NCBI GenBank assembly: GCA_963971425.1
Contig: OZ020515.1
Location: 37,152,371-37,216,370, forward strand
DNA from: Bryoerythrophyllum caledonicum
Lineage: Eukaryota; Streptophyta; Bryopsida; Pottiales; Pottiaceae
Direction of reading: 5' to 3'
Length of the DNA stretch: 64,000 nucleotides
Shown here: piece after piece, positions 1 to 57,944 of the stretch
Position numbering within the stretch: position 1 is the stretch's first letter
How the letters are laid out: every line of letters begins with the position of its first letter
The notes under the pieces: generated by a model
Told to the model about the DNA's origin: nothing
Seen by the model: the letters and a program-made list of their open reading frames with translations, nothing else
The model's database searches: none
Program-made: the position numbers and the translations under genes

Positions 1-1440
1 GGTTCCAAGACTATACACTGCGAAAACACCAATCTCTGGCGACCAAGTTGGCCATCAGGCTCAACTTCCCCAAATCAAATTATGCGTCCGAAGACAAACT
101 GCTGTTGTTGTTGCTCAGCCCCTGATTCATACCCCCAAAATGAATTGGAACGATATTTATTATTTTTGTATCTAGGAACCCGTAAATTATTAGGAAATAG
201 ACGCATATGAAGTCTTTCAGTTTTGAGCAAAAACATGCTTACATGCGTACATGCTTGTGTGAGATCAAGCTGGTCCTAGAGACATGGATAGCATGTTGAA
301 ATTTTCACAAAATTTATGATCCTCCACTATGTCTTCTTAAGTATAGAGGCTGATGTCAAAGCACACCATCTTGCACCTCCTGGTATCCCTTGCTCCTCTT
401 CAGTTTTGTCTCACAAAGCCCTTAAGCTTTCTCGCTTTCCATTGAAGTTCAAAGGATGAATTACACCCTCCTTTGAGCTTTAGTAGAAAGAAAGGAAGCT
501 TGAGCGCCTTGCAATATATGATTGGCATACCACAAGGAGCAGGACGGTATGGTTTGACATTGCTATGCCCTCTACTTAGAAAGACGCAATGGCAATATCC
601 TGTGATGGTTGTGGAAGATCATAAACCTTGTGAGAAATATTTCAAGAAAGTGGAATTGACTGGGATGAAAGCAGAAGTTATCAAGATGAAAACATGATTA
701 GCCAAGATGTTTGCCAAGTCAATAAAAGACATTACCAAAATTGCATTGCTTGCCTTTTACTCAATGTTGAACTTCTATAGCTGTTACCATCAGGCCGGCC
801 AAGATTAAAGCGTTTAAAGTCTTCCAATGGATCAAACTATGTCATTTTACTTTTCACAACTTCTCCAATCATGTATAGTACTATGTAACAAAGATCAAGA
901 GTATGTCTTATATACCCCTCATTTTGAAAGACATTCAAATTTCAACAAAGGAAATTGGATTCTTCCACAACTTCACAAATTGAATGCACCAAAAGAATAT
1001 TCCCTCCGCCATAGGTATGTGAACACCATGTTAGTTATAATTCACCAACATGAATTAGAAGAAGATTAGTCAGTTGCATTCTTCAAGAATGCAACTAGCA
1101 TAATGTACAATTGACTAGGAATTTCTAAAAATTGTTGTTTATATATATATAGACTTACCATGTGAAACCAAGTATTTGTTCATAACATTCTTTCATTGAA
1201 TCGTTACAAAATGGTTATATTCTTCAAGTAAGTCACTTAATAGTGGATTGATTTATTTCATTGACATAAGAACAAATTGTTTTAGAAATATATTTGATAT
1301 CAAGTGCCATCCTTTCTTCAACTTTTGGTTACAGCAGATAAATATAGAATCCGGAATCTTCTAACTTGTTCAAGGTGAAAGATCCTTACTAAAACATTGG
1401 AAGAATATTCTTGTTGTTTAGTCATTTGCTAAATAGGAAG
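1..1440. other. Unassigned non-coding stretch
   Basis: No recognisable gene is visible. Two short open frames occur on the plus strand (about 473-697 and 827-1069). Neither has a recognisable domain, and the first lacks an ATG at its start. The stretch is AT-rich with no convincing splice-linked coding series. Confidence 0.5.
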
Positions 1441-1829: not shown

Positions 1830-4800
1830 ATGGGGGGGCCTTATGTATTGAGAAGGGCTTGGTTGTTTTCAATTTTACGTTTGTGTAGAAGGATGGACAT
1901 AGCATATTGTATGGCAATGATGTTAATATTTTTGAAAGAGTTTGTAATTATATCACTAGGAATTTTGAAGGTATCTTCTAGGGTTTTAATAGATGGGATA
2001 AAGATAGTGGCGCAAGCGCCGGCTGTGATTACAATAAGGGGGTCCACTTTCCATCCAAGGGCAGTGATGTCATCAGTAAGGGGTTGGTATTTATTAGTTT
2101 TGATTTCGATGGCTTCTAGTGAGAATCTCTCATTACAATATGTAAATTCGATGAATTGAATGGTGTAATCTTGATTTATGTGGTCGGGTGGGGGGTCATT
2201 GTATGGTAGGCCTCTAACGCATAGTATGTCCGGTTTGAGTCAAGCATTGCAGTGGCATCGTTGAGTTTCACATGTACATGGGAGTAGCCATGGTGGCACC
2301 GTATTTTCTTGTGGGTTGTCATTAAAGGTGTCGGCATTCATGAGGATAAAACATCTCGATTTGTTATGAAAGGTGATTAATTTACGGATTTTCCATACAG
2401 CTTTGTTATGTCTTTTGACGATTAGGGAGTGTATGTGGTGGTTATGACATTTAAGGAGAACATATAGTCATGTGTCGGGAATCGGGATCTGTGGAAGTGC
2501 ATATTGGGCATGTTATAGATGGGAATCTTTCTATTCCAAAGAAGAGTTGTTTTCGGGCGTTTCCCATGTATTGTCCGGTACGGAATTTGATAAGGCATGT
2601 TATTTGTGAGTCTGTGATGATGGGGTTTTTCCAAAAATTTGTCGAGAGTTCATTGTCTATGTTGTTGTTACTAGTCCATTTTCTATGTTAGGTAAGTTGT
2701 TTGAGATTGTGTCAAGGTTATTATATAAGTCTTGTTTTTTGAGGCATTTGTTCAAGAATCTAACCAGGCCTTTATCGGGGGTGTCTTCTTTGGAGGGCCA
2801 GTCTTCTTTTTGGAAGTGATATGGGGTGGCGTAGGCGTGTTCGTGTGGATCTTTGGCATTTTTGTGTGATTTTTCTCGGCCCTCTTTTGCTAGTTTATCC
2901 GCTTGTTCGTTACCATTAATATTGGCATGGGCTCGAACTTTGTGGAGGGTAGTGATTTGTCTTCGTTTTAGTATCATTTGAACCATTAATTCTAGTATGA
3001 TTTGGTCTAGGTGGCTATTGTGGAGGGTAGGGTGTGTTATTTGGGTGTTTAATAGGTATAGTGCGTTAATGGAGTCTGTGAATATGTGCGTTGGTTCATT
3101 GTTGTATTTTGTTGTGACGATATCCAGTGTTTTGTGGATGGCCATGAGTTCTGCTCTGAGGATATTTTGTAGTCCATGCAGTCTTTTGGCTGATTTGATT
3201 TCTTTCCTAGAATTGTATATTCCATAACCGACTTTTTCTTTGCGCCAATTACCCGGTCTAATTTGTTCTGGCGGTTTGAAGGAGCCATTGGTATAGTAGC
3301 TATATGCGGGGTCAAATTTCGGTGAGGTGGTGGTATGGTAGTCCGCAAGGGGTAGGGGTGTTAAAGTGTAATCTATTGTATTGTTGTTGTAATTCAGTTT
3401 TGACCATTTTTTGTTTATGTTGATGGGTGTTTGTATAGGTGTCGCTGGGGCCATCTTTGTGTATAGCCGGTGTATGTTTAGAGTTTTTGCTATGGAGGTG
3501 AGTTCTTCTAGTTGTTTTGGGTGCCAAGGGTTTGATTTTGGTGGTGGACACATATTATTTGTAGTGTGGATGGTTCAATTCGAGGCTTTTTCAATTCAGG
3601 TGGAATGGTGGATTCTTCATATGATATTGAATCTGCTTCAAATAAGGCAATGATATGAGAGTCTGGGAATGGACTTACTTGTTGTTTAAAGTTTTGGTAC
3701 CAGTTTTTATCTGGGGTGATGATGAGTGTAGATGTGTGGTTTGGATCATTTTTGGCAGCAAGGCGTGCCCAGTGTAGTGCTTGTTGTGTTTTGTCTTCGT
3801 TGTGGAGGTGTGCTATACCATTACCGATCCATTTGTGGTCAAAGGCTTTTCCCAGGGAGCCGAATATTTTATCTCTTTCAAATGGGGAGTGGAATTTTAG
3901 TAGTTTGGTGGAGCATGTGACAGGGGAGGAGAAGTATGACTGTTCTATGTTAAAGGATGATATTAGTGAGTCTAGGATGGGGGTGGATATTGTATATTGT
4001 GCATTTTTGAGGGGGTTGTTTTTTGGGATACGATATTTGTATCTTTGGTATACCCAGATTAGTTTGGTTTCAAATGATTGGGTTATTGGTTCAATGTTTG
4101 TGGGTGTCTATAGTTTTATATTGTATTGGTTCCATAGCCATTGGAGTCTAGTAGTGGTAATGGTTTGTAGATGTCGGCCATTTTCTTCATGTAGATGTAC
4201 TTGGTTGTTGTCTATTTTGATTGTGTTTGAGATTGTGAGGATATCATTTTGAGGGTTACATTCTGTCGTATAGATGTTTAGGAGTGGGATAATTATTGGT
4301 GGGGTTACCTATCTTGTATCTTTGAGTTGTTCTTGGAGGTGGTGGGTTTGGATGATTTTGGAGTAGAATTTATTTTGGATCCTTTGATAGTATTGTTTTA
4401 GTATTTCGGTGTTGTGGATGGAGGTGTTATGGTCGTGTCGTGGGAAAAGGCTTCTTTGAGGGAGCCATTTATTAAATGTATTGTCGTTGTGTTGCCATTG
4501 GCATAGATATCTAGTGTATGTGTTTTGTATGTTGTTGAAATCTTTGTGTTGTATGTGTTTATGATGTATTATTCTATTAATAGGATATAAGGTGGGATTC
4601 TTGAGGTGTGTTGGAGGCCGGAGGTGATAGGGCAGTGTTGGGTTGGAGGGTAATGCTCGGTGAGATGTTGTTGGTAATGATGAATGTATCTTTGAGTCTA
4701 TGGGAATATGAGTGTATGAGGCAAGGGGTGTTGGATATTGTTGGACATGTTGGTCGGCAGAAGAGTTGTTTGGCAATATTTAGGGCGCACTTAATTAGTT

Positions 4801-10594: not shown

Positions 10595-13480
10595 TCAATC
10601 CTCTTCATCCTCTCCATCCGACATCCCATTTCCGTTTCCGTTCAACTTGATGTCAGGTTCGTCTTCATCCATTTCATCATCGTCTCCCATATCATCGTCC
10701 TCGTCTTCCTCTTCGCTTTCGGAGTCCTCATCTTCGTCCTCCTCAAGGTCATATTGCGAGCCGCCATCAACCATCACATCTATCGCCTCTGGTTCGTCAT
10801 CCTCTCCTTCTTCGTATACAACTGCTGCTTCCTGCTGAACTTCCTTCCCCTGGGACTCATTCTTCTGGATCTGTGCCATGATCAGATCCAATCGGCCTGA
10901 GAGGGACAGGAGCGGACGGAAAACCGACAGCCTGGTCTCAATAATCTGATACAATGATGTGAGCACAGGTTGCAAGGCGAGGTTGGTCATGACGAAACTT
11001 GCATGTTGAAGCAACACAGCCCGAACCCAAGGTACCAGGCTCAGCGCTCTTTGAGGTCTCCCTTCCATTTTGGAAACAGCTGCTGTTAGAAACTTCGCAG
11101 CTTCAATAGGCCGCAACCTTCGGATGGTATTTGTTATCACCTTCTCATCCCCTACGTTAAGACATCGGTCTAGAAGAGCGTTGTCGTCTGCTTGCAATGC
11201 TTGAGACAAGAGAACCTGTAAAGAGTCGGCTCTAGGTACCACTGCTTTGTCACGGGCGTCCTCGTTCTGATCTTTGGCATCACCTTCTTCAATTACCTTG
11301 AGTGCAATCAACTTCTCCTCCAACGTCTGTTCGTCGTCAGAAACAACAGTAAGAGCGGCATCGTCTGTATCAGCTTCCGTACCATTTATCTCTTCAGACG
11401 GTTGGGCAGAAGGTTGTGCCTCCTCGTCCTCAATCTCGGCGCGCCGTTTCTTAGTTTTTTTCTTTGCCGAAGCTAGATCAATTTGTGGTCGAGCAATTGT
11501 AGCCTCTCCTGCATTGTCCGGACCTAGTACGATAACTGCCGCCGAAGCTGTTCCCGTCTTGGTCACAGCATCTCCTGCTGGAAGTAGTGCTCCTTCTGTG
11601 GATGAATTGAGAGCAATATTCAAGCCCTCCTGTCCGCTCAATGAAACCTTCTCGAAATGAGGCTTGACTGAAGTGCCGTGGACAACGAGAACAGCTTCTT
11701 CGTTTTCCAAAAGCCTGCATCGAAGTAATGTACACGATTGTCAGTGACATAAAACAAGACCTTACCGCTCGAAGATACAAAAAGTGGATGCACAGGTTAT
11801 CACCTTGCCGCTAAAACAAACGGTGTGCTGCCTTTCCCGGCATGTTCAACACGAATGATTGTAGGTTTAGCACTCGCAAGTTCAGCTACGGTAGGAGCGG
11901 ACCAAACATATGCCACTCCGCCTTCTGTCACTGCAACTACCCTCCGCACGTCACCCTCCTTGTCGAAACCGCTGACATCTATCGCAACTGCTGGATGCTC
12001 TACAGAGAGTGTAACGGGCGCCGCTGCTTCTGACTTCCCACCTTCCACGAGCCACATTACAACATGGGATTCTCCTGTTGCAGACGAGAGTACGTACTTC
12101 CCGTCTGAAGTGAAGCATAGGGCTTTTACAGGAGCCTGCGTTGAAACAAATGGTCGTTCAGAACCCTATTCAAAGCACAAACTCAAGAAAGCACACTACA
12201 GAAGGGGTGAATCCTGGAGATACGACACCCTAAAATAATACCGTAAAATCCACAAAGGGTACGAATCTAACGGCCACGTACAGGATGGCCAGGAAATTTG
12301 CGAAGCCGCTTCTTGCTTGAGAGATCGAACAGCTTCACTTCAGCACTTGCGACGGCGACACTGCCACCATCTGCACATAAAGTACTGAGACATAAGAATA
12401 ATGAACGCTGTCAACGAACCTCCACCCTCAAAACAAATGCTTCTTCGATAATCATCAAACCTCGCAATCTAAAGAAGAAAGAACAAGAAGGGAGTGTGCA
12501 GAAACTTCTCACAACATCTGAGGAGCTTCACACCACAGTTCCAAATATCTACCATTGCAGAGCAGAGGAAATACAGTTCATAAAATAAGAGAAACGGAAA
12601 CTCTACAGACCTTCGGCAACAGCCACACAAGTCAGAGGTGTTTTAGCCGCTCGAAATTTCGAAAGCACCTGCCCAGAGGCGGAATCCATTTCACACACGT
12701 GCCCATCGATGCCGACACTGTATAGCCTCTGCCCACTTTTACTGAATGACACAGACTTCACACTCCTGCAGGTTAACCAATTGAGATGTCATTGGCCAAG
12801 TTTGACAGGCGAATCATGCACCTGAAGATGTACTGTCATTCACCAAATCTAAACCACGATCACCATTTCCCTTCACCCATTAAGAGACTTCCACCCAATA
12901 TTGGCAAACAACAAGCTGACCAGAATAAGACCGACATTCTGCACACCACGCACACCATTGCAGACTCCATTCTAGGGTTTGAGACGTACCCGGCATGAGA
13001 ATCACTGGTCCGCCACTTGAGCTCTCCGAGGGTGGTGTCCCACGCAATAACATCACCACTACCAGTCCCAACAACAACAACCGCTGCGCCTCCCTTCTCT
13101 TTCACACCCTTTTTCTTCTGGGGAGAACAAAAAAATGTACTAACCTGAGTACACAAACCAACCAATTCAAAAGCGAATACCACCAAGCGAGACCCACCTT
13201 TTTAGCGGAACCGCTGGAAGGCAAAGCGCCCCAAGCCATACAAGTGTAGTCCATAGCAAGGTGCCCAGGCGCGACGGGGTCCGACGCCACGTCCACGATC
13301 TCATTGCGCAGAGTGCCCGTGAGAGCATCCCAGACCTGCACCAAAACGTCATCAGGAACCAAGCAGCAGCAAAAACGTAACGGAGAGGAGCAGAAACGGG
13401 ACCTTAATGCGGCCATCGCCGGCGGAGAGCGCCAGAGCCGAGCCCTGGGGGTGGAAGGCGGTGAAGATGGGCGACGCCAT
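10595..13480 (-). CDS. WDR43: WDR43/UTP5 small-subunit processome protein
   Basis: This is a WD-repeat subunit of the nucleolar UTP-A complex, which acts on pre-18S rRNA. Seven exons join in frame on the minus strand: 13480-13403, 13335-13198, 13117-12990, 12765-12611, 12370-12282, 12135-11804 and 11714-10595. They give 679 residues, close to human WDR43. All introns are GT-AG. The N-terminal half has WD units ending in motifs such as IKVWDALTG and VIAWDTTLG. Exon 7 carries a basic KKKTKKRR segment (about 391-398). A Utp12-type helical domain follows (about 471-586, with LLSQALQADDNALLDRCL). A very acidic tail runs from about 602 to the end. The start is the ATG at 13480, giving MASPIFTAFHPQGSALAL, which matches the family's usual opening. 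No break is seen, so this is an intact housekeeping gene. A telo-box lies just upstream. Confidence 0.92.
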
Positions 13481-35584: not shown

Positions 35585-35612
35585 TCTTCGTTGCTGCTGC
35601 TGCTGCTGCTGC
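35585..35612. repeat. GCT trinucleotide repeat
   Basis: About nine GCT units occur upstream of the kinase-lectin gene, in what may be its promoter or leader. Confidence 0.85.
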
Positions 35613-35741
35613 TGCAAGCCTTCATTGGTACGTTTTGGATGTATCAATTGGTGTTCGCTGATCCAGTTGAAGCTGGGAAGCTATTCGTTCCCTGAGGCTG
35701 CTTTTCGACTGAGTCACAGCTTTCAGTGTCCAAGGTTAGGT

Positions 35742-36025: not shown

Positions 36026-39000
36026 ATGGCTCAGCTTGGCATCCGCTGGCCATTGAGCTGGTGGAAGCCTGTAAACAATATCTCCCAGCAGGGCACAAAT
36101 GAATCACTCAATCTTTGCAAGGGAGTGATAGGCAAGGCAGTTCATCACTTGGGTGTGCAAGGAGACGGTTATCTCATGAATAGCCACCAATGTGACTTTC
36201 TCGTGAGGAGGCTCTTGGAGACACAGGGCACACTGGCAGATTATAAGCAGTTGTTGCTTGAGCTTGATGAGAGAGCAATGCCAGTGCTTCAGGAGCTTCA
36301 TCAGGCGCTCGTGAACGCCGAGAGGCTCATCCGGTTCAGCTGCATCACCGACACAGAATGGCTGAGAGCAGCCATAGAGCAAGGTGACATGAAAGAGACG
36401 TTTTCATCACTGCTGTACGAGGTTCAATGGCATAGGTTTGTTCTGCACAGCATTCTGGTGGATCATTTCAGGGTTTCCGGCATCGTATTTCAACCAGCGC
36501 TGTGCTATGGGGAGCTGACTGAACGAGACAGCTTGGGTTTAGCGTCAGCGGCGAAGGAAGATGAGTGGCTCCTCAAGACCCGTCTCACGTCTGTGATTCC
36601 AACGCTGGACGATCCAGTAGAGCAAGCCCTTGCACATCAGTTTCTGAAGAAAATGGGACCCGCTGATGATCAGCTTATGTCGGTCTCTTTTGAGGGCTCA
36701 TATCAGCTGCTTAAAAACAAAGATCCATCTCATAGCGTCAGCCCGGCTACATTGAATTTGTTGTTCCTGAATCCCCAAAACTTGAACGAGTTCTACTGCG
36801 GCACTCTGCTTGGCAGAGGCTCCTTTGCTGAGGTGCGAGAAACAACTCTTTTGGGCGGCAAGTATGCAATTAAGATCTTTGATCAGCATCACACTCGCTC
36901 ATTTGAGCAAGAAGTGACAGCTTTACAGGGACTGGGGCATCACCCCCATATAGTGCGGCTCTTGTGCTACTCGAAGAACCATCCAAAATGCTTCCTCATC
37001 ATGGAGAAGATGGACATGGACCTGTCTCGGTTTTTACAGCTCAGGAAAGGTACCAAGTCTGACCATGTAGAAGCGGTTGTCTTGATGCTCCAAATTGCGG
37101 AGGGCGCGAGGTACATTCACAAGAACCACATGGCGCATCGTGATCTGAAGCCAGGGAATGTCCTTGTGAATGTTGATGACAACTGTACCAGAGCTCGTGT
37201 AGTGAAGATTGCTGATTTTGGTCTGACCAAAACCAAGAATGCCAGTGTGGCGAAGCCAGACCACACTTTGAATACCGGCACCGTGAGGTACATGGCGCCG
37301 GAGGTCATCAAAGCAGCGCCGGAGATCGAATCAGATATTGAATTCGCTGAACTCATCCCCAAGAAAGCAGATGTGTACAGCTTCGCCGTCATCTGCTGCG
37401 AGATTCTAACGAGGGAGGTTCCTTTTATAAACCTACAGAACAATGAACTGAAGAAGCATGTGAAGGCGGGTCAGGGTCCAATGTCGAGACCCGACCTTCC
37501 AACGGACTGCCCCGAGCGGTTAGCCTCTTTGATTCGAAGATGCTGGGCCGAAGACTTCTACGAAAGGCCGGATTTTGTTGAAATCTGCGTAGAACTTCGG
37601 GACATCAAAGGGACACTTCTGCGCTCAGGTGAGAGCAATCAAGTCTCCTTAGAGTTCAGCATTCTAATTCATTTTGTGGATGCATGATAATGTCTCTTGA
37701 TTCATGTCAAGTTTGCTAATATTGTTGGCATAGTGCCTGTCAGGTGATAAGCAAATGTCGGCACAGGCAAAAGACGCTATCATCAAAGTTGGATCCAGCT
37801 TGAGTGGGCAGAGAATGCAGGTATGGAAATGCGTCATCTTCATGTGGATTGTTGGTCGGACCTATAAAACGTACCTACTTTCATTAACACCTGAATTCGA
37901 CCACATGTAATCCAACACATTATTTTGTTATATGAATGTTCTTCATGAGAAGCTACTTTCATGGTGGAAGAATTTGCTTTCTGGTAATTGAGTTGTAAAT
38001 GCACGGCCAGATTGTACAGATACTTGAGTTCAATGTTAGTATGAAAACGTAGGAAAGGTTGGGGGTTTGGATTGTAGCTGTGTGTCTAAGGTCTTTTACA
38101 AATGCAGCTTCATAAGTGTGTTGTATTACGTTTTGGCCACCAGAATAACAAATTTAAGTAAACTTTGATTGACTTTGAGTGGTGAACTCGTAAGACATTG
38201 AGATTCACGTTGCATCATGAGTGGACTTCATATCGTACTTGGTTCAGTCGAGTCACTCTACATTGGACATTATCTAGACTGATAAATGATTATTTTTTGT
38301 GGCGATCTTTTAGAAATTCAAGACGCCGAGCTCTCAATCTTTCTTAAAGCGGAGGTTATCGGAACGACCAGTGCGATTGCGTGGCGTCCTAAGGCGAATG
38401 TGGAACTGTCCAGTGGTGCTTGTCTTTCCCTTATTGCTTCTTCTTCTTTCTCTCGGTGCTGCTACTTATCGTGCCAAGCAACATCAAGACTTACCTCGGG
38501 AACACAGTCTTGACCGTGGTCAAGCAAAAGGTCAGTTTCATGATGGGGCTCATGAAACTGGCATCAGGCAGGGTCCTTGGGGTCGTCAGGAGCCTAATAA
38601 AATTACCGGTTTCTTTGATCATCAAGCCGATTCCATCAAATCGATCATGTTAAAATACGATCAAACTCCTCCAAGAATAGGCTTTATGGAGGTGGAATAC
38701 GTCAACCAGCCTCATGGAGAGGAATTTAAGAAGAGATACTGCTGGGATCATATTGGCAGCAAAGTAAAGAAGGTAATTCCTTTCTTTTTCCCTCTCATTC
38801 AAGTTCTGTTGAATTGTATTACTAGTATGTTTTCGCCTGAAACATGCAGATTTGCTCATCATAAATGGATTGTTGTGGTGTGCGTGTGATTCCAGATTGA
38901 TTTTCAACCCAATGAGTACATCAGACGGGTAAGTGGTTCAGTAGCCCTGTATTTTATAAATGTAAGATCAAGGAAAGTAGGCCTTCATAGCGTGGTATCA

Positions 39001-39189
39001 TTGACCTTTCACACCAATCTGAAAAGTCATGGTCCATTTGGTGATGAAGAGGGTCAGCGTTTCACAAGTGGTACTGGAAAAGTGATAGGGTTCTTTGGAG
39101 TAGCTGGTGTTCTTCTTGATCAACTTGGCGTTTGGATAATTCCCGATCATGAATCTGATGGTGACCAGAGTTTTTTGATAGAGCAGTAG
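36026..39189 (+). CDS. MLKL-like kinase with membrane segment and C-terminal jacalin lectin
   Basis: Four exons join in frame: 36026-37628, 37744-37820, 38314-38772 and 38896-39189, giving 810 residues. Residues of about 30-150 form an all-helical N-terminal region (GDGYLMNSHQCDFLVRRLL) that recalls the DUF1221 region of plant MLKL proteins. The kinase spans about 255-530 and has every key motif: glycine loop LGRGSFAEV (262-270), Lys283, HRDLKPGN (371-378), DFG (397-399), APE (424-426) and a C-lobe RCWAEDFYERPDF. After a basic stretch (LKRRLSERPVRLRGVLRRMW) comes a hydrophobic run at about 592-612, then a jacalin domain from about 646 (GPWG) to 803 (IKSIMLKY, VVSLTFHTN, HGPFGDEEG, GKVIGFFG, LDQLGVW). 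The basic flank predicts a cytosolic kinase and a lumenal or external lectin. Jacalin domains bind mannose or galactose-type glycans. The ATG at 36026 is chosen as the first in frame. The kinase frame simply continues into intron 1 to a chance stop at 37687. Confidence 0.88.
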
Positions 39190-40765
39190 ATTATGAACTC
39201 ACTCTCTCAGGATGATTCTTGACTGTTCTGTAAATTCACAACATTATAGAACAGTCAAGAATGCTGAGAGACTTGGTTTTGTTAGAGTCGACGTACAACT
39301 AGATAAATCTAGATTCTGTTAGAGTAGACATACTAAGCTAGATATTGTAGGATTATCCGAATAGGTTCAAATGTTGTTTTGAACGATCAGTCTGGAACAC
39401 TATTGATGTGTGTAGTATTTCAAAACATGGGTAGGTCTATGTTTGTGATTGGCCCACAAACTAAAAACAATCTTATTTGGTGTTGATGGATGCACGTTTG
39501 GTGTGAAATGGGTGGAGAAGTTCACTTTTTGGGGCACACTTCAACTTCCTAAACTAAGATTACTAGTGAAGTACAAAAATATCATAGTAGAATAAGATGG
39601 TTTTGAAGAAGAGAACAAGGGGTGAAACCTAGGGAATGGAGTAGTTTGAACATCGTGCCTCTAGAAACAAAAATTGATGTAGAAAGGAAATATTTGTTTT
39701 CAAACTTTTTGATGCAGTAGAGATAAACGTAAACGATCCAGGATGCGGATGCTGTGTTTGTCCTGTATCTTGTGAATTTTAAGATAGACGTAATTGCTTC
39801 CCCTGAAAAACCGGCGCTTAAAAGTCAGGGCGGTGTATGTGGAAGGGGCTTGATTTAGAGGCGGAGAATAATATTGAAGCTTGAATTAGAGGCGTTGATT
39901 CTCTTTTCGTGATCCACGTGATCCTGCTCCACGAGAAACGAAAGTGGCGTGTAGTTTCTGGCCCAACCCGTTCTCTATTCTACGCGGCTGCCATCAAACC
40001 CAGGCCTTAATTCCCAGACCTTGGAAAACTTTCCGGATTTGTAACTCACCTTGTCTATTTTTTTAGCACAAATGAGAGCACGCTAAACCTGGAGCATACC
40101 CTGGGTTCAGAGGAGATTCGGCATGGAGATGCTGAGTTTTGGTTCGTTTACGTTTATCTCTAGTGTTTAGTTAGAGCAATCCAAGGGCGACCAAATCCAA
40201 GCAGTTTGGTTGCCCTCGCCCTTGAAACCCAACTTGACTCTTTCATTTTTATTTCTGGCCACAAATAATGTATACTATGTGTACATCACAATGTGATGAT
40301 GTGGACCACTCTTGTGGCACCATGATGAGTGAAAAGTGACACAATGAACAGTTCACAGCAAGGAGTGCACTAAAAAAAGGCCCTTCTTCCTTGTGCAACT
40401 CTATTTATCCAAAGAGACATTGGAAATTTCTACAGTGTCAGGGCGTTGGAGGGGAGTTGTTCTTGCAAAAAAGTTGCCCATAGCCTGAACATATACCGAT
40501 CTCGGTAAGTTTTTGACGGTTGTTGGCAATGCTTTTACACTCGTTAAATCCTAACTGCATACAGGAATTGAGCAAATTGACTTTGGGATCCAATAGTTGG
40601 ATCAATTGACTTTGGAATCCAAGGGTTTTGCATTGGAAACCTTGCGTGCTTGTCAACTTCTCTCTAGAACCAGTTTAGTTAGTACCGGATCCCACTATTT
40701 ACCCCGATCAAGCGTTGCATCAAGCCTTAGGCTTGGGAGAGTGAGGGAGGATAGGGACAAACTTG
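39190..40765. other. Intergenic DNA downstream of the kinase gene
   Basis: No gene is supported. The first few hundred bases may be the 3' UTR. An inverted pair, GATTCTTGACTGTTCT (39213) and AGAACAGTCAAGAATGC (39248), could form a hairpin just after the stop codon. Confidence 0.4.
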
Positions 40766-40995: not shown

Positions 40996-43900
40996 CTACA
41001 CTAAAGATCACATTTAGTGTATGACCGCGAATAGTGTAATTACCTTAGTACACTATTTGTGAACAAGTTCGCAAGTAGTGTTAGATGCCAATGTCATTTA
41101 TGACACTACCAAAGAACTTAAAAGTGGCCGTCATACTTTCCTTCTCCGTTGACTTTCCCCATGTCCAACTCACCCTACCTCCAATCAACCACCCCTACCC
41201 CCAATTAAGCACCTACCAGCCGTCATGACTTAATTGCTCCCATGAACTCCTTTCCCACTCCCTATACTTCCAAGACCATTCGGTGAACAAAGCTCTCACT
41301 CTCTGCTGTCAACCTCAACTTTGCTGCCAACACAATTTTCCTGCGTTTGAGTTTTGTTTGCAGGTACTTTATGTATTTTTTGTACCTGCGATTACTGCGT
41401 TAATTGAGATTTTTGTGATGGCTGATTTCTGTACCTGCGTTAATTGTGATTTCTGTTATGGTTGATTTCTGTACTCACTGACTTCTGTACCTGCGTTAAT
41501 TGTGATTTCGTTATGCCTAATTTCTGACTGCGTTAATTGTGATTTCATTACGCCTGATTACTGAGTGTTCCCGCTTTTCTACGTTTCTGATTTCTGGGAA
41601 TGGTTTCTGGCCAGCAGAATGGTTTCTGGATTCTGATTTCACCGCCCTGCACCTGCCCGACCCTGGCCAGCAGAGTTTTTCTTTCTGCCCTCAATTTTCC
41701 TCAGCAAAAAAGGGGGGGGGCTTATACCTCCGGGATTTGGGGTTGCCAAACCCTGTCACAAAACTTATGGGGGGCTTATACCTCCGGGATTTGGGGTTGC
41801 CAAACCCTGTCACAAAACTTATGGGTTATTGAATATTAACGCTGCCCGACGAACTTGCGAAGGACCAACCCCGAAAAGGACCTATGGACGTACCACCCAA
41901 CTCAACAACCACACCAACAGCGACCAACCACGTCGCACCGTCGCCAGGTATGACTAATTCCATCCATATGTATCATCCACATCCAAATGTTTAGTAGGAA
42001 TCATGGATGCTAATGTCGTTTGTCATTCATAGAGATGCCTCTATCCGGCCACCCACCACGTAGCCGCACTATCCAACAAGTGACGACCATCAAAGCCCGC
42101 CGTGACGTCATCGCATGGATGGTCGAGGATCAAGCTATTAATGGTAGTCGGGGGTTAAATGGCCGTATTGTTTGAGCTTTCCCGGAGCATTTTCGAGCCA
42201 AACATCCGACGAACATGATTAAGGCCACTCGCTGGTGGGCCCTTCGTGACACTCTCTTGCCCGTTGACCCCACTCCAGCAAACTCTTTGGAAATCAGTCG
42301 TAGTACTGCGGGCGCACGGAAGCGAATTCTAAGTAAAGCGGTAGCTGGACGGGGCCCCCGTCGGTCATCATGGGTGCAATGGCTTTACCCAAAACTTTTA
42401 CAATCGTTCGAAATTTACAAGACATCCGCGGTAAAGTTTTCACCCGCCCTTCTTATTGAGCTCGCCCTTACCATTATATTAGCTCCAGATTCACCGTATA
42501 CTGCCCAATCTACGGACCCCAAATACAACATCCTATTGACACAAAAAATTACACACACATGGATATATCATTTTATGGACGCACATAGTATCGTATTATT
42601 GTCACAACGGGGGCGTTTGACTTGTAGCCCGGAAAAAGAGCAACAAATTGAGATAAGCACCGCTTTCCATTTGGGTATTTTACACCGAGGGTTTCAATCG
42701 GGGGATTTTGATGAAAATCTTGTCGAAAATATTGATGAAACTCATTTTTCCATCAATATGGACAATGGGCGCACTTTGGGATTTAGAGGGGATACTTCAG
42801 TCACTTATGCGGATGTCGTTGCCGGCGGGGAAGCAATGACAATGGTAATTCGGATTTCAGGCGGGCATAGGGCCACTATAGAACCCCCAATGATAATTTT
42901 TACAAATTCAAATAGTAATTACCCAATCCGGGGATTGGAGGATTCAATTCTCGGAGTTTCTTACCGCACCGGTCCAAAGGGATGGATGACTCAATCTATT
43001 TTCCCTCAATTCTTTGAAGATCCTAGATCTTACCAACCGGATGTCCATAACCGCATCAAACACATTTGGGTGGATAATTGTACGAGCCATAACATTACTC
43101 CTAGATTGGCGGATGTATTAGCTCAAAAACAAACAGTTTTAAAATATCTTCCCCCACGTACAACCCATTTATGTCAACCGGCCGATACATTTATCATTTC
43201 GAAGATCAAAGACGCGTGGACAATTCGGTGGGAGGCAAAAAAAACCGAACTCATCTACAACAATGCCTGACAAAACAATGCCCGCGGTGACGGTCATTGG
43301 TCCGGTAAACTTACAAATCCGGGTAAGCGTTTTTTCCTTCAATTGGCGGTAGATGCAATGGATGATGTGAATCGCATGGTCGATTTTGATAATATCTCTT
43401 ATGTACGAAAAGCTATGATAAGATGTGGTTTAGCATTGGATTTAGATGGCACTTGGAGTGTTCAGCAACTATTTCCCCACCTTCGGGAAATCATTGCAAA
43501 ACATCGCCCTTACTTTGAAGGATTAAAAGTATCTCATTTGCCTATGGCAAATTAATATATATGTATGTATTTTTTATAATATATATTTGCAATTTTACTT
43601 TTCTAATTTCTTCTTCCAAATGTTTTGTAGTTGTTAGTTCTTACACTCTCAATTTAATTTTTTACAATCTATGTTTCAATTCAAATCTCATTTCCTATTT
43701 TTCAATCTTCTTCTTGCATATCTTTCAATGTTTTCATTCCATGTTTCATTTCTTATATTTCAATATTTTTATATTACTACGTAATATTCTTCAAAACTTC
43801 CAAAGCTTCCTCAACATTCCTCAATATTTCCAAAGATTCTTCAAAATCCTCCAAGATCCTTCATGATTCCTCAAGATTCCTCAAGATTCCTCAAGATTCT

Positions 43901-53821: not shown

Positions 53822-56366
53822 ATGGCTGAAAGTAGTAGCAGCAGAAGCAACAACTGTGAAGTTAGTGAATCCAACAAACTTCTAGGACCACAGAATTACA
53901 ATGTATGGCAGATTAAGATGACAACGACTCTAAAGAGAGAGGACCTTTGGCCACTTGTGGAGACACTACATAGCTTAGCTTCATACCCAGTTACTATTGG
54001 AGGTGTAGCATATGGAGAGACAAACACTATAAGAAACCCGTGTTTTTTGTGACAGGGCAACTAACGTGCAATTATGTTTTGTGCAGCATCCGGCACGTCA
54101 ACGTTGACGTCCAAAAAAATCCGTTATAATTGACATGCAAATAACATGCCAAAATCTCAAAAAACAGGCCTTCGTTTTTAAAAACGTCACAAAAACTTGG
54201 GGGTTGAAGGTGTTAAAAATCTGCCATGTGGCTGCCACGTCGCGTCCACGTCATCGCCACATGGACGGGCAGTGCCACATCCCCAACTTTTTCATCCGGG
54301 CCCTTGGTAATGTGGCCCATGATGTGGCGCATGACGTGGCATACGATTGTGACTAGGCTTGCATATGTGGATCCGCCATTTTATGACATGGCACCTTTAA
54401 AATATGACGTGTCACTTTTTAAAATATGACGTGGCATGTCCAATCAGCATAGTTTAATGCAATAATTAATTGTGGACAGTGTAAATTGGGACATCATTTC
54501 TAACACGGTATGTTTTCTGTGACGTTCGTTATGACGTTTTCTGTGACGTTCGTTGAGATGGAGGTCATCAAAAGCAAGCACCAAGTCAGCAAAAGCAAGC
54601 GCCATGTCACCTAAAAGAAGCGCCATGTCATCAAAAAGTACCGTATCACTTTAAGTTTCAAGGGTAATTCAAATTCATCCAAATAGATGGATGAAAGTGA
54701 ATTACTTTTGATTCATGTGTGATGAGATAGGAGAGAAGGCCTTACATATATATACAATGGGATGCACAAGTGGTGACAATCCATATGGGATTTTTGGATT
54801 TGTCATGGTGTTAGCATAAACATTAAAATGTCACAGTAGACGTCCATCCAGACGTCTATTCCAACATCCTCTTTGCCTACGTGGCAGCTGATTTCAACCT
54901 TGCCTACATGGCACAAACATTTAAAAAAGAATCCAATTTCTACCTTGCCTACGTGGCTCAAACATGTTTTTTGTAATGCCAGTAAGGACATCTACGTTTT
55001 TTGTGATGTCAGTAACGACATCCACGTTTTTATTTTTGTAGGGGTCAGCCCATCTCCACTGTGTTTTAACCGTTGGGCAGTGTTTTATGGGAGGTTGCAC
55101 TAACAATCTCGAAGTTACTCACAGTGAAGCTGAAACCCCCCTGCCGACGTGGCATTGTCACCTTTCTGAGGACGTTGTCTAAAACATGACTATGTTCACC
55201 AGGACGTCCCGCAAAACAAATACGTTTATGTTATCATCTCTGCGTTTTTCAGCCAATTTTTCCATGTTTGGTGCAACATCCACTAGAATCCGAGAGCCCA
55301 AGGCTCGGCCCGTTCGCAAAAACATGTTTTGAAAAACACACTTGATCACAGCTAACGTCACAAAAATCACGGGTTTCTTATAGTGAAAGTTACTAGAAGC
55401 TAAACAACGTGCACTAACACGACTTACAATGTCTGTAGGGGACAACTTGCTTGGTGCAATCAATCAACACGAAGACCCTGCAAAGACATGGAACATGCTC
55501 AAGTCAATGTTTTCAGGTGGAGATCAGCAGCAGATCCAGATGCACACAAACAGGCTGTATGGAATGTCCATGCGAGAAGGTGAAGATATCAAGGCTTACC
55601 TCACTGAAGCCATGGATCTGCGAAACCAACTAAGGGGTTATGGAGAAGAGATACCTGACAAGACACTGATCAACCTTGTTTTCAACGGTCTACCTCAGAG
55701 CTACAAAATGATCATACAAGGTATCACATATCTCATCAATCGTACTTTTCATGTTGTAATGGGAAAACTCCTCACAAAAACACACAGAAAGAGCCTACGG
55801 GATCAGAAACGCGGTCAAGACGAAGCTCTATCAATACAGTTTCAGAGACATGGAGGAGGATGCAGCGGTAACCAACAAGGAGGAGGCTGGGGTCGCACCA
55901 TGCATGCACGTGGGTGGACTCCCAGTAATGGTTACTTCTCTGGCAGAGGCTACGGTGAAGGAGGATTTTTTAATGGTCATGGGTATGGCCCCATGACCGC
56001 GCACAGGGCACAGAGGCCGCGCCCGATGAATAGCGGCGGTTGGATGGGAGGCGGCGGCCCGATGGCAGGTGGCAGCGAGGTCAGAGGCGGCGGCTATGGC
56101 TCTAGGCCGCCCGACGGCGGCCAAGTCTAGCCAGGCGGACTGTTCCAGGCATCGTGTTTCCAGGGCCAACGCGACAGCATCGTGTATCCAAGGTCATCGC
56201 AGGTGGCGGCCAGCTTCAGCCTGGACCAGGGTTAGCCAGGCCAGGGGTTATGACCTGGCCCGGACCTCCTCAGCCCACAAACGTTTTTATAGTTGGGACT
56301 TATGGTTCCCAGCAGGGAATGCCAAGAGCGAGGCAAATCATATGCTACACTTGTGGAACACCATGA
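53822..56366 (+). pseudogene. Copia gag, interrupted and frameshifted
   Basis: The start MAESSSSRSNNCEV leads into LLGPQNYNVWQIKM, the usual opening of plant Copia gag. The frame is cut at 54024 by a 1361-bp insertion. It resumes at 55389 (LLEAKQRALTRLTMSVGDNL) and reads through a UBN2-type region (AKTWNMLKSMFSG, AYLTEAMDLRNQLRGYGEEI, LINLVFNGLPQSYK) to a Gly/Arg-rich stretch. This frame stops at 56130. The zinc knuckle lies in another frame (ICYTCGTP, stop, HISRFCP at 56340-56390), so one frameshift and one in-frame TGA (56364-56366) break it. The knuckle Cys-Cys-His-Cys residues are otherwise all present. Confidence 0.85.
54025..55385. mobile_element. CACTA-type non-autonomous element inside gag
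   Basis: The tips are CACTATAAGAAACCCGTG and its inverse CACGGGTTTCTTATAGTG. The 3-bp direct repeat AAA flanks the element (54022-54024 and 55386-55388). Taking out the element and one AAA leaves the gag frame unbroken across the site, which fixes the limits to the base. CACTA tips and 3-bp duplications define the En/Spm superfamily. No transposase is encoded. The interior is rich in ACGTCA, GTGACGTT and GTTTTCTGTGACG words in both orientations, as in CACTA subterminal repeats. Confidence 0.9.
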
Positions 56367-57944
56367 CATATTTCAAGATTTTGCCCTCATGGAAATTATT
56401 CCACCGTTAACTGTGTTGAGGATTTCTATGACCCCTATGTTGAGGATGGGACTTATGTAGACAATGGTTGGTCCGCCGAGGCTAATTTAGCAGAGTATCA
56501 AGACTCTACATGGTTTATGGATTCCGGTGCAAGCCACCATGTTACGGGGAACTATGAAAACTTACAACATGTTGTTGCAAGCTCACATGGGCAAAATGTA
56601 ACAACTGCTGACAATAATGCCCACCGCATAGCAGCTGTGGGATCATCCAGTCTTCAAACTGGAACTCACCCTGATGGAATAAATTTGGATCATGTTTTGT
56701 ATGTGCCGGTGTTAAAAAGAAACTTATTATCTGTGGGCTCATTAGCTGATCAAGGTCATACTATAGTTTTTTCTGGCAATCAATGTCTTATTCTTGATCA
56801 AAACAAATCTATTGTTGCCATTGGACATTGGAATTTGACCAACGGACTCTATCAATTCACCAACAAAAGTAATGAAGCTATGGTGAATTCTGTAGTCTCT
56901 GAATCAACTATGCATTTATGGCACAAGCAATTTGGACATCTCAACTATGCTAGTCTTCAACATTGTGCAAATGCACAACGAGTTCAAGGATTACCTACAT
57001 TTCCAGCTCTTAGAAGTGTTTGTGGAGATTGTATGGCAGGTAGACAATGTCGTGAGCGTTTTTCAAAAATCTCCATCAACAGAACTACTCAGGTACTCCA
57101 ACTCATTCATTGTGATGTAATTGGACCAATTCGGACACCTTCTCTTAGTGGGTCTCAATACTTTGTAGCCTTCACTAATGATTATTCTCAGAAAAGTTTT
57201 GTATGCTTCATGCGACACAAGAGTGAAACCCTTAAAAAATTTATTGAATTTAAAGCAAGAGTTGAAAATGAGACGGGCAGAAGAATAGTGATACTACAAT
57301 CTGATCGAGGGGGGGAATATTTATCTCATGAATTTGACTCCTATCTTCTCAATCAAGGAATTCAACGGCAACTCACAATTGCATTAACACCACAACAAAA
57401 TGGTGTGAGTGAACGACGGAATAGAACTATTGTCGAAAAAGCAAGATCCATGGCCGCTGCATGTCATCTTCCTGGATTTCTATGGACAGAGGCAATTAAT
57501 ACAGCGATATATCTTGTCAACATAAGTCCTACACGCGCAAATCAAGGTATGACACCCGACCAAAAGTTTTACAATATCAAACCCTTTGTTTCACACCTAA
57601 AGATCTTTGGATCTTTGGCATATGTTCATATCCCTGACATTAAACGAACCAAACTTGATAGTAAAACTATCAAGTGTATCTTTCTAGGATACGACACCGA
57701 GAGCAAAGGGTATAGGTTGTATGATCCGCAATCAAAGAAAATCGAGAGGAGTAGAGATGTAGTCTTTGACGAAACACAAGTAGGCTATGAAATTGTCAAA
57801 ACCAATGTTCCCATTCAAGACAATCCATTCACTGACAATTTATTTCCTACACCAATGCCAATCTCTCCCCCTACCACTCCATCTGCACCTGATTTACCAG
57901 ATCTACCCATAGTACGTGAACCCACCAGCGACACTATCTTATGA
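56367..57944 (+). pseudogene. Copia protease-integrase fragment
   Basis: The frame continues from the stop in the zinc knuckle. The aspartic protease site is FMDSGASHHVTG (Asp codon 56520). The pre-integrase zinc region reads LWHKQFGHLN then CGDCMAGRQC. The integrase triad is Asp in IHCDVIGPI (57114), Asp in LQSDRGGEY (57303) and Glu in NGVSERRNRT (57411), with 35 residues between the last two. The C-terminal KIFGSLAYVHIP and KCIFLGYD motifs follow. The frame ends at 57944, directly where similarity to Copia is lost, so reverse transcriptase is absent. No stop occurs within this 525-codon stretch. Confidence 0.9.

Follow-up and report, generated by a model that had tools for sequence, protein, structure and literature searches.

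A predicted MLKL-type kinase with a C-terminal jacalin lectin and a candidate membrane segment in the moss Bryoerythrophyllum caledonicum

In this study, a 64,000-nucleotide stretch of the Bryoerythrophyllum caledonicum genome (assembly GCA_963971425.1, contig OZ020515.1, positions 37,152,371 to 37,216,370, forward strand), here called the window, was analyzed around a gene at 36026–39189. The gene encodes a kinase with intact catalytic motifs and a jacalin lectin in one chain. The reading that we tentatively favour, short of calling it probable, is that the product is an MLKL-type protein (HeLo bundle, brace and intact kinase) with a C-terminal jacalin, to which the moss lineage added one membrane span; it would be a type II protein with glycan-triggered HeLo action. 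The domains, their order, the predicted fold, the conservation and the family were all determined by computation.

Gene Model and Domain Organization

Four exons on the + strand, with GT/AG borders at all joins, gave a single open frame of 810 residues. The features, in window coordinates, were as follows.

36026..37628, + strand: exon 1, with the start codon, HeLo/MLKL-like domain, brace and kinase; start residues match Ceratodon protein P0001
36089..36469, + strand: HeLo/MLKL_NTD-like four-helix bundle, residues about 22–148, from AlphaFold2 (AF2) helices; top VIA-align rows are MLKLs
36521..36655, + strand: predicted brace helices, residues 166–210, between the HeLo-like domain and the kinase, covered by the AtMLKL2 alignment (23..211)
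36803..37594, + strand: protein kinase domain, residues 260–523, Pfam E 1.4e-44, catalytic motifs intact
37744..37820, + strand: exon 2, a short linker exon (phases 1 and 0) that also occurs in the other two kinase-jacalin genes of this genome
38314..38772, + strand: exon 3, with the basic stretch, hydrophobic segment, linker and jacalin first half
38314..38403, + strand: basic stretch, residues 561–590, from charge counts; 57% identical to Ceratodon (17/30 aligned)
38407..38463, + strand: hydrophobic, predicted membrane-spanning segment, residues 592–610 (Kyte-Doolittle); in 3/30 kinase-jacalin proteins
38477..38478, + strand: in-frame AG after a pyrimidine-rich tract, a candidate alternative acceptor whose use would start the exon at 38479 and remove the membrane segment
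38572..38772, + strand: first half of the jacalin-like lectin (PF01419)
38896..39189, + strand: exon 4, with the jacalin second half (to about 39132), C-terminal tail and stop

The start at 36026 agreed with the Ceratodon protein P0001, which likewise begins MAQL. The domain order was a helical N-terminus, a kinase, a basic stretch, a hydrophobic run and a C-terminal jacalin. A four-exon open gene with these parts had been proposed in the first-pass annotation, and it was confirmed by the frame, the borders, Pfam, the orthologue and a paralogue. Motif reading likewise bore out the kinase: the glycine loop, catalytic Lys, HRD, DFG and APE were all intact. The jacalin matched PF01419 at residues 647–792 (E 7.6e-21; 75.4 bits versus a cut-off of 22). 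It aligned with Parkia lectins, including the G..G..LD loop, and the best named of these is mannose/glucose-specific.

An artefact joining two genes was considered and judged unlikely, because other mosses and a clubmoss also have annotated proteins that contain both kinase and jacalin. The linker exon and the jacalin exon also lie 3′ of a kinase in two other genes of the same genome.

Resemblance of the N-Terminus to Plant MLKL

The helical N-terminus had been said to recall plant MLKL. The predicted structure and the sequence profile comparison with the PDB supported this. MLKLs led the structural matches of the predicted N-terminus alone, and the predicted brace consisted of helices 166–193 and 197–210 (AF2). 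The solved structure closest to the full-length predicted model was Arabidopsis MLKL3, with residues 239–534 dominating the full-length rows. For the kinase, the best PDB profile matches were AtMLKL2 and AtMLKL3 (6lba and 6ka4; E 1.1e-70 and 1.1e-63); by structure alone, MLKL was not singled out and many kinases tied.

DUF1221 is the Pfam name for the plant HeLo/MLKL N-terminus. Its match at residues 51–131 scored 15 bits with the whole protein or 16.6 bits with the exon 1 part, under the cut-off of 25. Of the three domains searched for by profile in the window protein, the kinase and the jacalin were therefore recovered and DUF1221 stayed below its cut-off. Among the eight relatives scanned, one, the clubmoss protein P0126, was over it. 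The N-terminus alone, compared with PDB sequences by phmmer, gave nothing meaningful (best E 0.23). The putative MLKL link is visible only through predicted structure and sequence profile, from which a HeLo/MLKL bundle followed by a brace is predicted at the N-terminus.

Like plant MLKLs (AtMLKL2/3 and wheat Pm13), the window protein has a predicted HeLo/MLKL_NTD four-helix bundle, brace and C-terminal kinase fold. It differs in its C-terminal jacalin and its lineage-specific membrane segment. The AtMLKLs are described as pseudokinases in the excerpted literature, whereas the window kinase has catalytic motifs. Key catalytic residues are present in Pm13, according to the excerpted text of PMC10951266, as they are in the window kinase. 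Pm13 is, by analogy, the nearest functional guide for the window protein.

Pm13 also bears on a different explanation, in which the protein would be a kinase fusion immune receptor that does not rely on HeLo execution, with the jacalin as an integrated bait or targeting domain, the kinase signalling and the HeLo domain serving only as a scaffold. In the same excerpt, the wheat MLKL Pm13, whose kinase is intact, gives mildew resistance, and whether its N-terminus kills or senses is left open. In a chimeric monocot protein, the jacalin-related lectin (JRL) domain moves the protein to the attack site, as stated in the excerpted text of PMC5536079. Both reports are in line with such a receptor, which we consider quite unlikely.

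Copies, Relatives and Distribution of the Membrane Segment

The best database match was Ceratodon purpureus M758_3G237300 (P0001, 836 aa), with 74% identity over the full length. Its basic stretch and hydrophobic run are placed as in the window protein. By region, identity ranged from 57% (basic stretch) and 75% (hydrophobic segment) to 79% (N-terminus), 81% (kinase) and 82% (jacalin).

A Pfam jacalin search of the 437 Mb genome gave at least five matches at at least four loci, a lower bound. One paralogue (L006; C2:22.85 Mb, on the same contig as the window) has the N-terminus, kinase, linker exon, basic stretch, hydrophobic run and jacalin. A second gene (L008; C7:29.6 Mb) has the N-terminus, kinase, linker exon and jacalin without the hydrophobic run. 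All three genes have the linker exon flanked by the same phases (1, then 0). A further copy (L007; C2:22.914–22.924 Mb, ~22.92) consists of decayed exons 2–4, with exon 3 interrupted by a copia-type retroelement (L009) and no kinase exon visible immediately 5′ of exon 2. The insertion looks recent, because its two long terminal repeats show 3 differences over roughly their first 278 bases.

Relatives were taken from the best 120 of 1407 and the best 120 of 744 database matches. The listed jacalin-bearing relatives came from Ceratodon, Physcomitrium, Sphagnum (fallax, magellanicum, jensenii, troendelagicum, compactum and tenellum), three further contigs and the clubmoss Diphasiastrum complanatum. 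Together with the three own-genome genes they formed a set of 30; P0006, which has no jacalin, was dropped. The clubmoss protein P0126 (O6H91_23G051300) combines DUF1221 above cut-off with a kinase and a jacalin, so the fusion reaches beyond mosses. The same order was thus found in mosses and a clubmoss, and just three of the 30 proteins have a hydrophobic run between kinase and jacalin (2.05 to 2.77). The remaining 27, at most 1.09, are transmembrane (TM)-free moss and clubmoss proteins (P0002, P0004, P0008, P0019, P0126 and others), which share the N-terminus, kinase and jacalin with the window protein and differ from it in having no such run. Changed catalytic motifs were seen in Ceratodon P0005 (M758_3G254100), with HGN for HRD and DSG for DFG, and in Physcomitrium P0004, with HCD. 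Pseudokinases may therefore have arisen inside the kinase-jacalin family.

Lectin receptor-like kinases have a lectin-first order. Those of the L-, G- and C-types resemble the window protein in having a lectin, a membrane segment and a kinase in one chain. Their lectin is extracellular and their kinase cytosolic, as described in the excerpted literature, whereas the window protein has a C-terminal jacalin-type lectin and a HeLo-like domain before the kinase. Its order of kinase, hydrophobic run and jacalin does not correspond to theirs. The first-pass annotation had treated the protein as an inverted lectin receptor kinase. This view was abandoned: in the HeLo-kinase-jacalin family, which extends to a clubmoss, the lectin is normally C-terminal. 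The grass kinase-jacalin fusions (PK/JRL) also have a kinase and a jacalin in one protein; no membrane segment or MLKL domain is mentioned for them in the excerpted texts of PMC5485960 and PMC5536079, and they are likened here by description only.

The full-text literature search returned no paper naming MLKL or DUF1221 together with jacalin, none joining kinase fusion, MLKL, lectin and plant immunity, and none on jacalin, kinase and Ceratodon. It returned none on mixed lineage kinase domain-like in bryophytes, although moss MLKLs may still be mentioned in HeLo/MLKL papers. The excerpted text of the lectin survey PMC6362431 mentions no kinase-jacalin; moss kinase-jacalins may be listed in lectin-survey supplements.

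The tree was built from 29 of the 30 proteins, with the Sphagnum tenellum fragment dropped and linker columns left out. The three TM-bearing proteins sat in one 7-row clade with support 100/99. This clade also held three TM-free Ceratodon proteins and one from Physcomitrium, and the order inside it was not resolved. In a first tree, the TM-bearing genes as one clade had an approximately unbiased test value (p-AU) of 0.26. In the second, without linker columns, holding them together was 1.22 log units better than the free search (p-AU 0.54), and a clade of the TM-bearers plus the Physcomitrium row had a p-AU of 0.415. A clade of the window protein, four Ceratodon 3G rows, jgi6 and P0013 was weakly rejected in the first tree (p 0.029). 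The drawn tree needs 2 trait changes; the C2:22.85 gene and the Physcomitrium row are long branches of unsure placement. One gain is allowed, not proven, because the topology tests accept the TM-bearers together. Since the run occurs in 3 of the 30, inside a clade that also has TM-free members, the fusion itself is most likely old and soluble, with the segment inserted later. The simplest account of these sequences would be an old soluble HeLo-kinase-jacalin that acquired its membrane segment a single time, in mosses. Gain on two separate occasions, or a single gain followed by loss, is also possible.

Hydrophobic Segment, Topology and Splicing of Exon 3

With exon 3 spliced as modelled, the hydrophobic run CPVVLVFPLLLLLLSLGAA (residues 592–610) had a Kyte-Doolittle mean of 2.5 over 19 residues. 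Random shuffles of the first 192 bases of exon 3 gave an equally hydrophobic run in 2 of 2000 cases, a control that ignores pyrimidine clustering. The 30 residues before the run held 9 K/R and 1 D/E; the 30 after it held 5 K/R and 4 D/E. The corresponding counts were 7/1 and 3/4 in Ceratodon, and 5/0 and 5/2 in the L006 paralogue, where the basic bias is weak. Kinases need cytosolic ATP. Because of this need and the charge bias, a kinase inside and a lectin outside or in the lumen are favoured, and a type II arrangement is most likely from the sequence. The basic N-terminal flank and the conserved hydrophobic run of the type II proposal in the first-pass annotation stood; an in-frame internal acceptor could remove the segment, so that the topology is favoured only. 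The inverted topology would hang on how exon 3 is spliced.

Several observations weigh against a membrane-spanning product. Use of the AG at 38477–38478 would keep phase 0 with exon 2, and the resulting protein is open and TM-free. Of the 20-mers that precede the AGs listed for 38203–38593, the most pyrimidine-rich (0.95; other tracts at most 0.75) lies in the hydrophobic codons, and the longest AG-free run (at least 60 bases) follows this tract and ends at the AG at 38477–38478. Physcomitrium P0004 has neither basic stretch nor run, and its linker resumes at KQHQ, the residues after the run in the window protein and in Ceratodon. The +1 frame of the segment is nearly as hydrophobic (2.44). 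Differences to L006 in the segment fall at the three codon positions as 9/5/7, with no third-position excess. These points, the phase of the AG, the P0004 sequence and the 27 relatives without the segment above all, suit a soluble protein. The hydrophobic stretch would then be intron or usually spliced out at 38479, and a cytosolic HeLo-kinase-jacalin, similar to most family members, would sense through its lectin those glycans that membrane damage or pathogens expose to the cytosol. The basic stretch speaks against this explanation: no polypyrimidine tract accounts for it, and its 57% identity to the annotated Ceratodon protein is evidence for exon 3 starting upstream. In the decayed copy L007, 5 of 6 changes in the first 45 bases of the basic stretch were at third positions (p 0.018, for a stretch picked after viewing). 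In L006, the matching AG would be in frame only if exon 2 were skipped as well. A soluble protein is, on balance, somewhat unlikely.

Other codon counts were mixed. Exon 4 of L007 had a third-position excess (24/47, p 0.009); exon 2 (1/10) and the jacalin part of exon 3 (10/30) had none, and its intron differed by 16.6% and its exons by 13 to 18%. Differences to L006 in the basic stretch were 17/16/15 by codon position. In the segment, pN/pS, comparing nonsynonymous with synonymous change, was 0.58 on 21 codons only. Amino-acid selection on the membrane segment was not demonstrated by the codon-position counts or by pN/pS.

The tract, the AG and the resumption of P0004 at KQHQ suggest that the segment may be a polypyrimidine tract turned coding. 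In a fuller proposal, the jacalin exon would have grown in the 5′ direction across its own polypyrimidine tract in one moss branch of the family, and the Leu/Phe-rich translation of that tract would have become the TM segment. The old acceptor, still in frame, could then let splicing switch the gene between a cytosolic MLKL-lectin and a membrane-tethered form whose lectin lies outside, which would make it a glycan-gated, pre-anchored cell-death protein. In this full form the proposal is unlikely.

The residues around the run also allow a product in two parts, one a HeLo-kinase and the other a lectin that is secreted or cleaved off on its own. The run would act as a signal peptide through internal initiation, or the type II protein would be cleaved by signal peptidase. 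Small residues at −3/−1 suit signal peptidase. Such residues follow the run in the window protein and its paralogue (SLGAA, SITVA), and both have a Met just before or inside the run. The linker exon and its phases are, however, common to the TM-free C7 gene (L008), whose lectin has no such run, and the Ceratodon model is one protein. We hold this explanation to be very unlikely.

Surroundings in the Window

A perfect 14-base inverted repeat (39216–39229 and 39248–39261, 18-base loop) was seen by eye just 3′ of the stop, in the likely 3′ untranslated region. The decayed copy L007 seems by eye to retain one arm only. A CTG trinucleotide run lies at about 35594–35615, ~400 bases 5′ of the start codon. 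Mobile-element-like open reading frames occur near the gene at 42176–43267 (+), 55387–56127 and 56367–57941 (+), and 2657–3571 (−), with DDE_1 endonuclease, copia gag and integrase region, and RNase H domains among them. An open reading frame at 10598–11740 (−) has a Utp12 domain and is likely part of an ordinary ribosome-biogenesis gene.

Proposed Mechanism and Significance

For the membrane-spanning MLKL-lectin that we tentatively favour, we infer topology, ligand, activation and output as follows; the parts list alone comes from the data, and the activation chain is borrowed by analogy from MLKL biology. The HeLo domain and kinase would lie in the cytosol and the lectin outside or in the lumen, with the protein held in the membrane. 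The lectin would bind mannose/glucose-type glycans, either microbial or cell-wall or glycoprotein glycans exposed by damage. Clustering by the ligand would gather the kinases for trans-phosphorylation, and the brace would release the HeLo bundle. The already-tethered HeLo bundles would then form oligomers on the membrane, either opening it or signalling defence. It is plausible, from the predicted fold, that a cell-death-type executor is here joined to a glycan sensor.

MLKL-type executors are known as soluble proteins switched on by upstream signals. In mosses and in a clubmoss, a single chain carries a HeLo-like domain, an intact kinase and a sugar sensor, so that one protein may have combined sensing with execution early in the evolution of land plants. 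With the membrane-anchored form, one can ask directly whether a ligand bound by the lectin may trigger the HeLo domain across the membrane. The coincidence of the segment with a polypyrimidine tract offers a testable route by which soluble proteins may gain membrane anchors.
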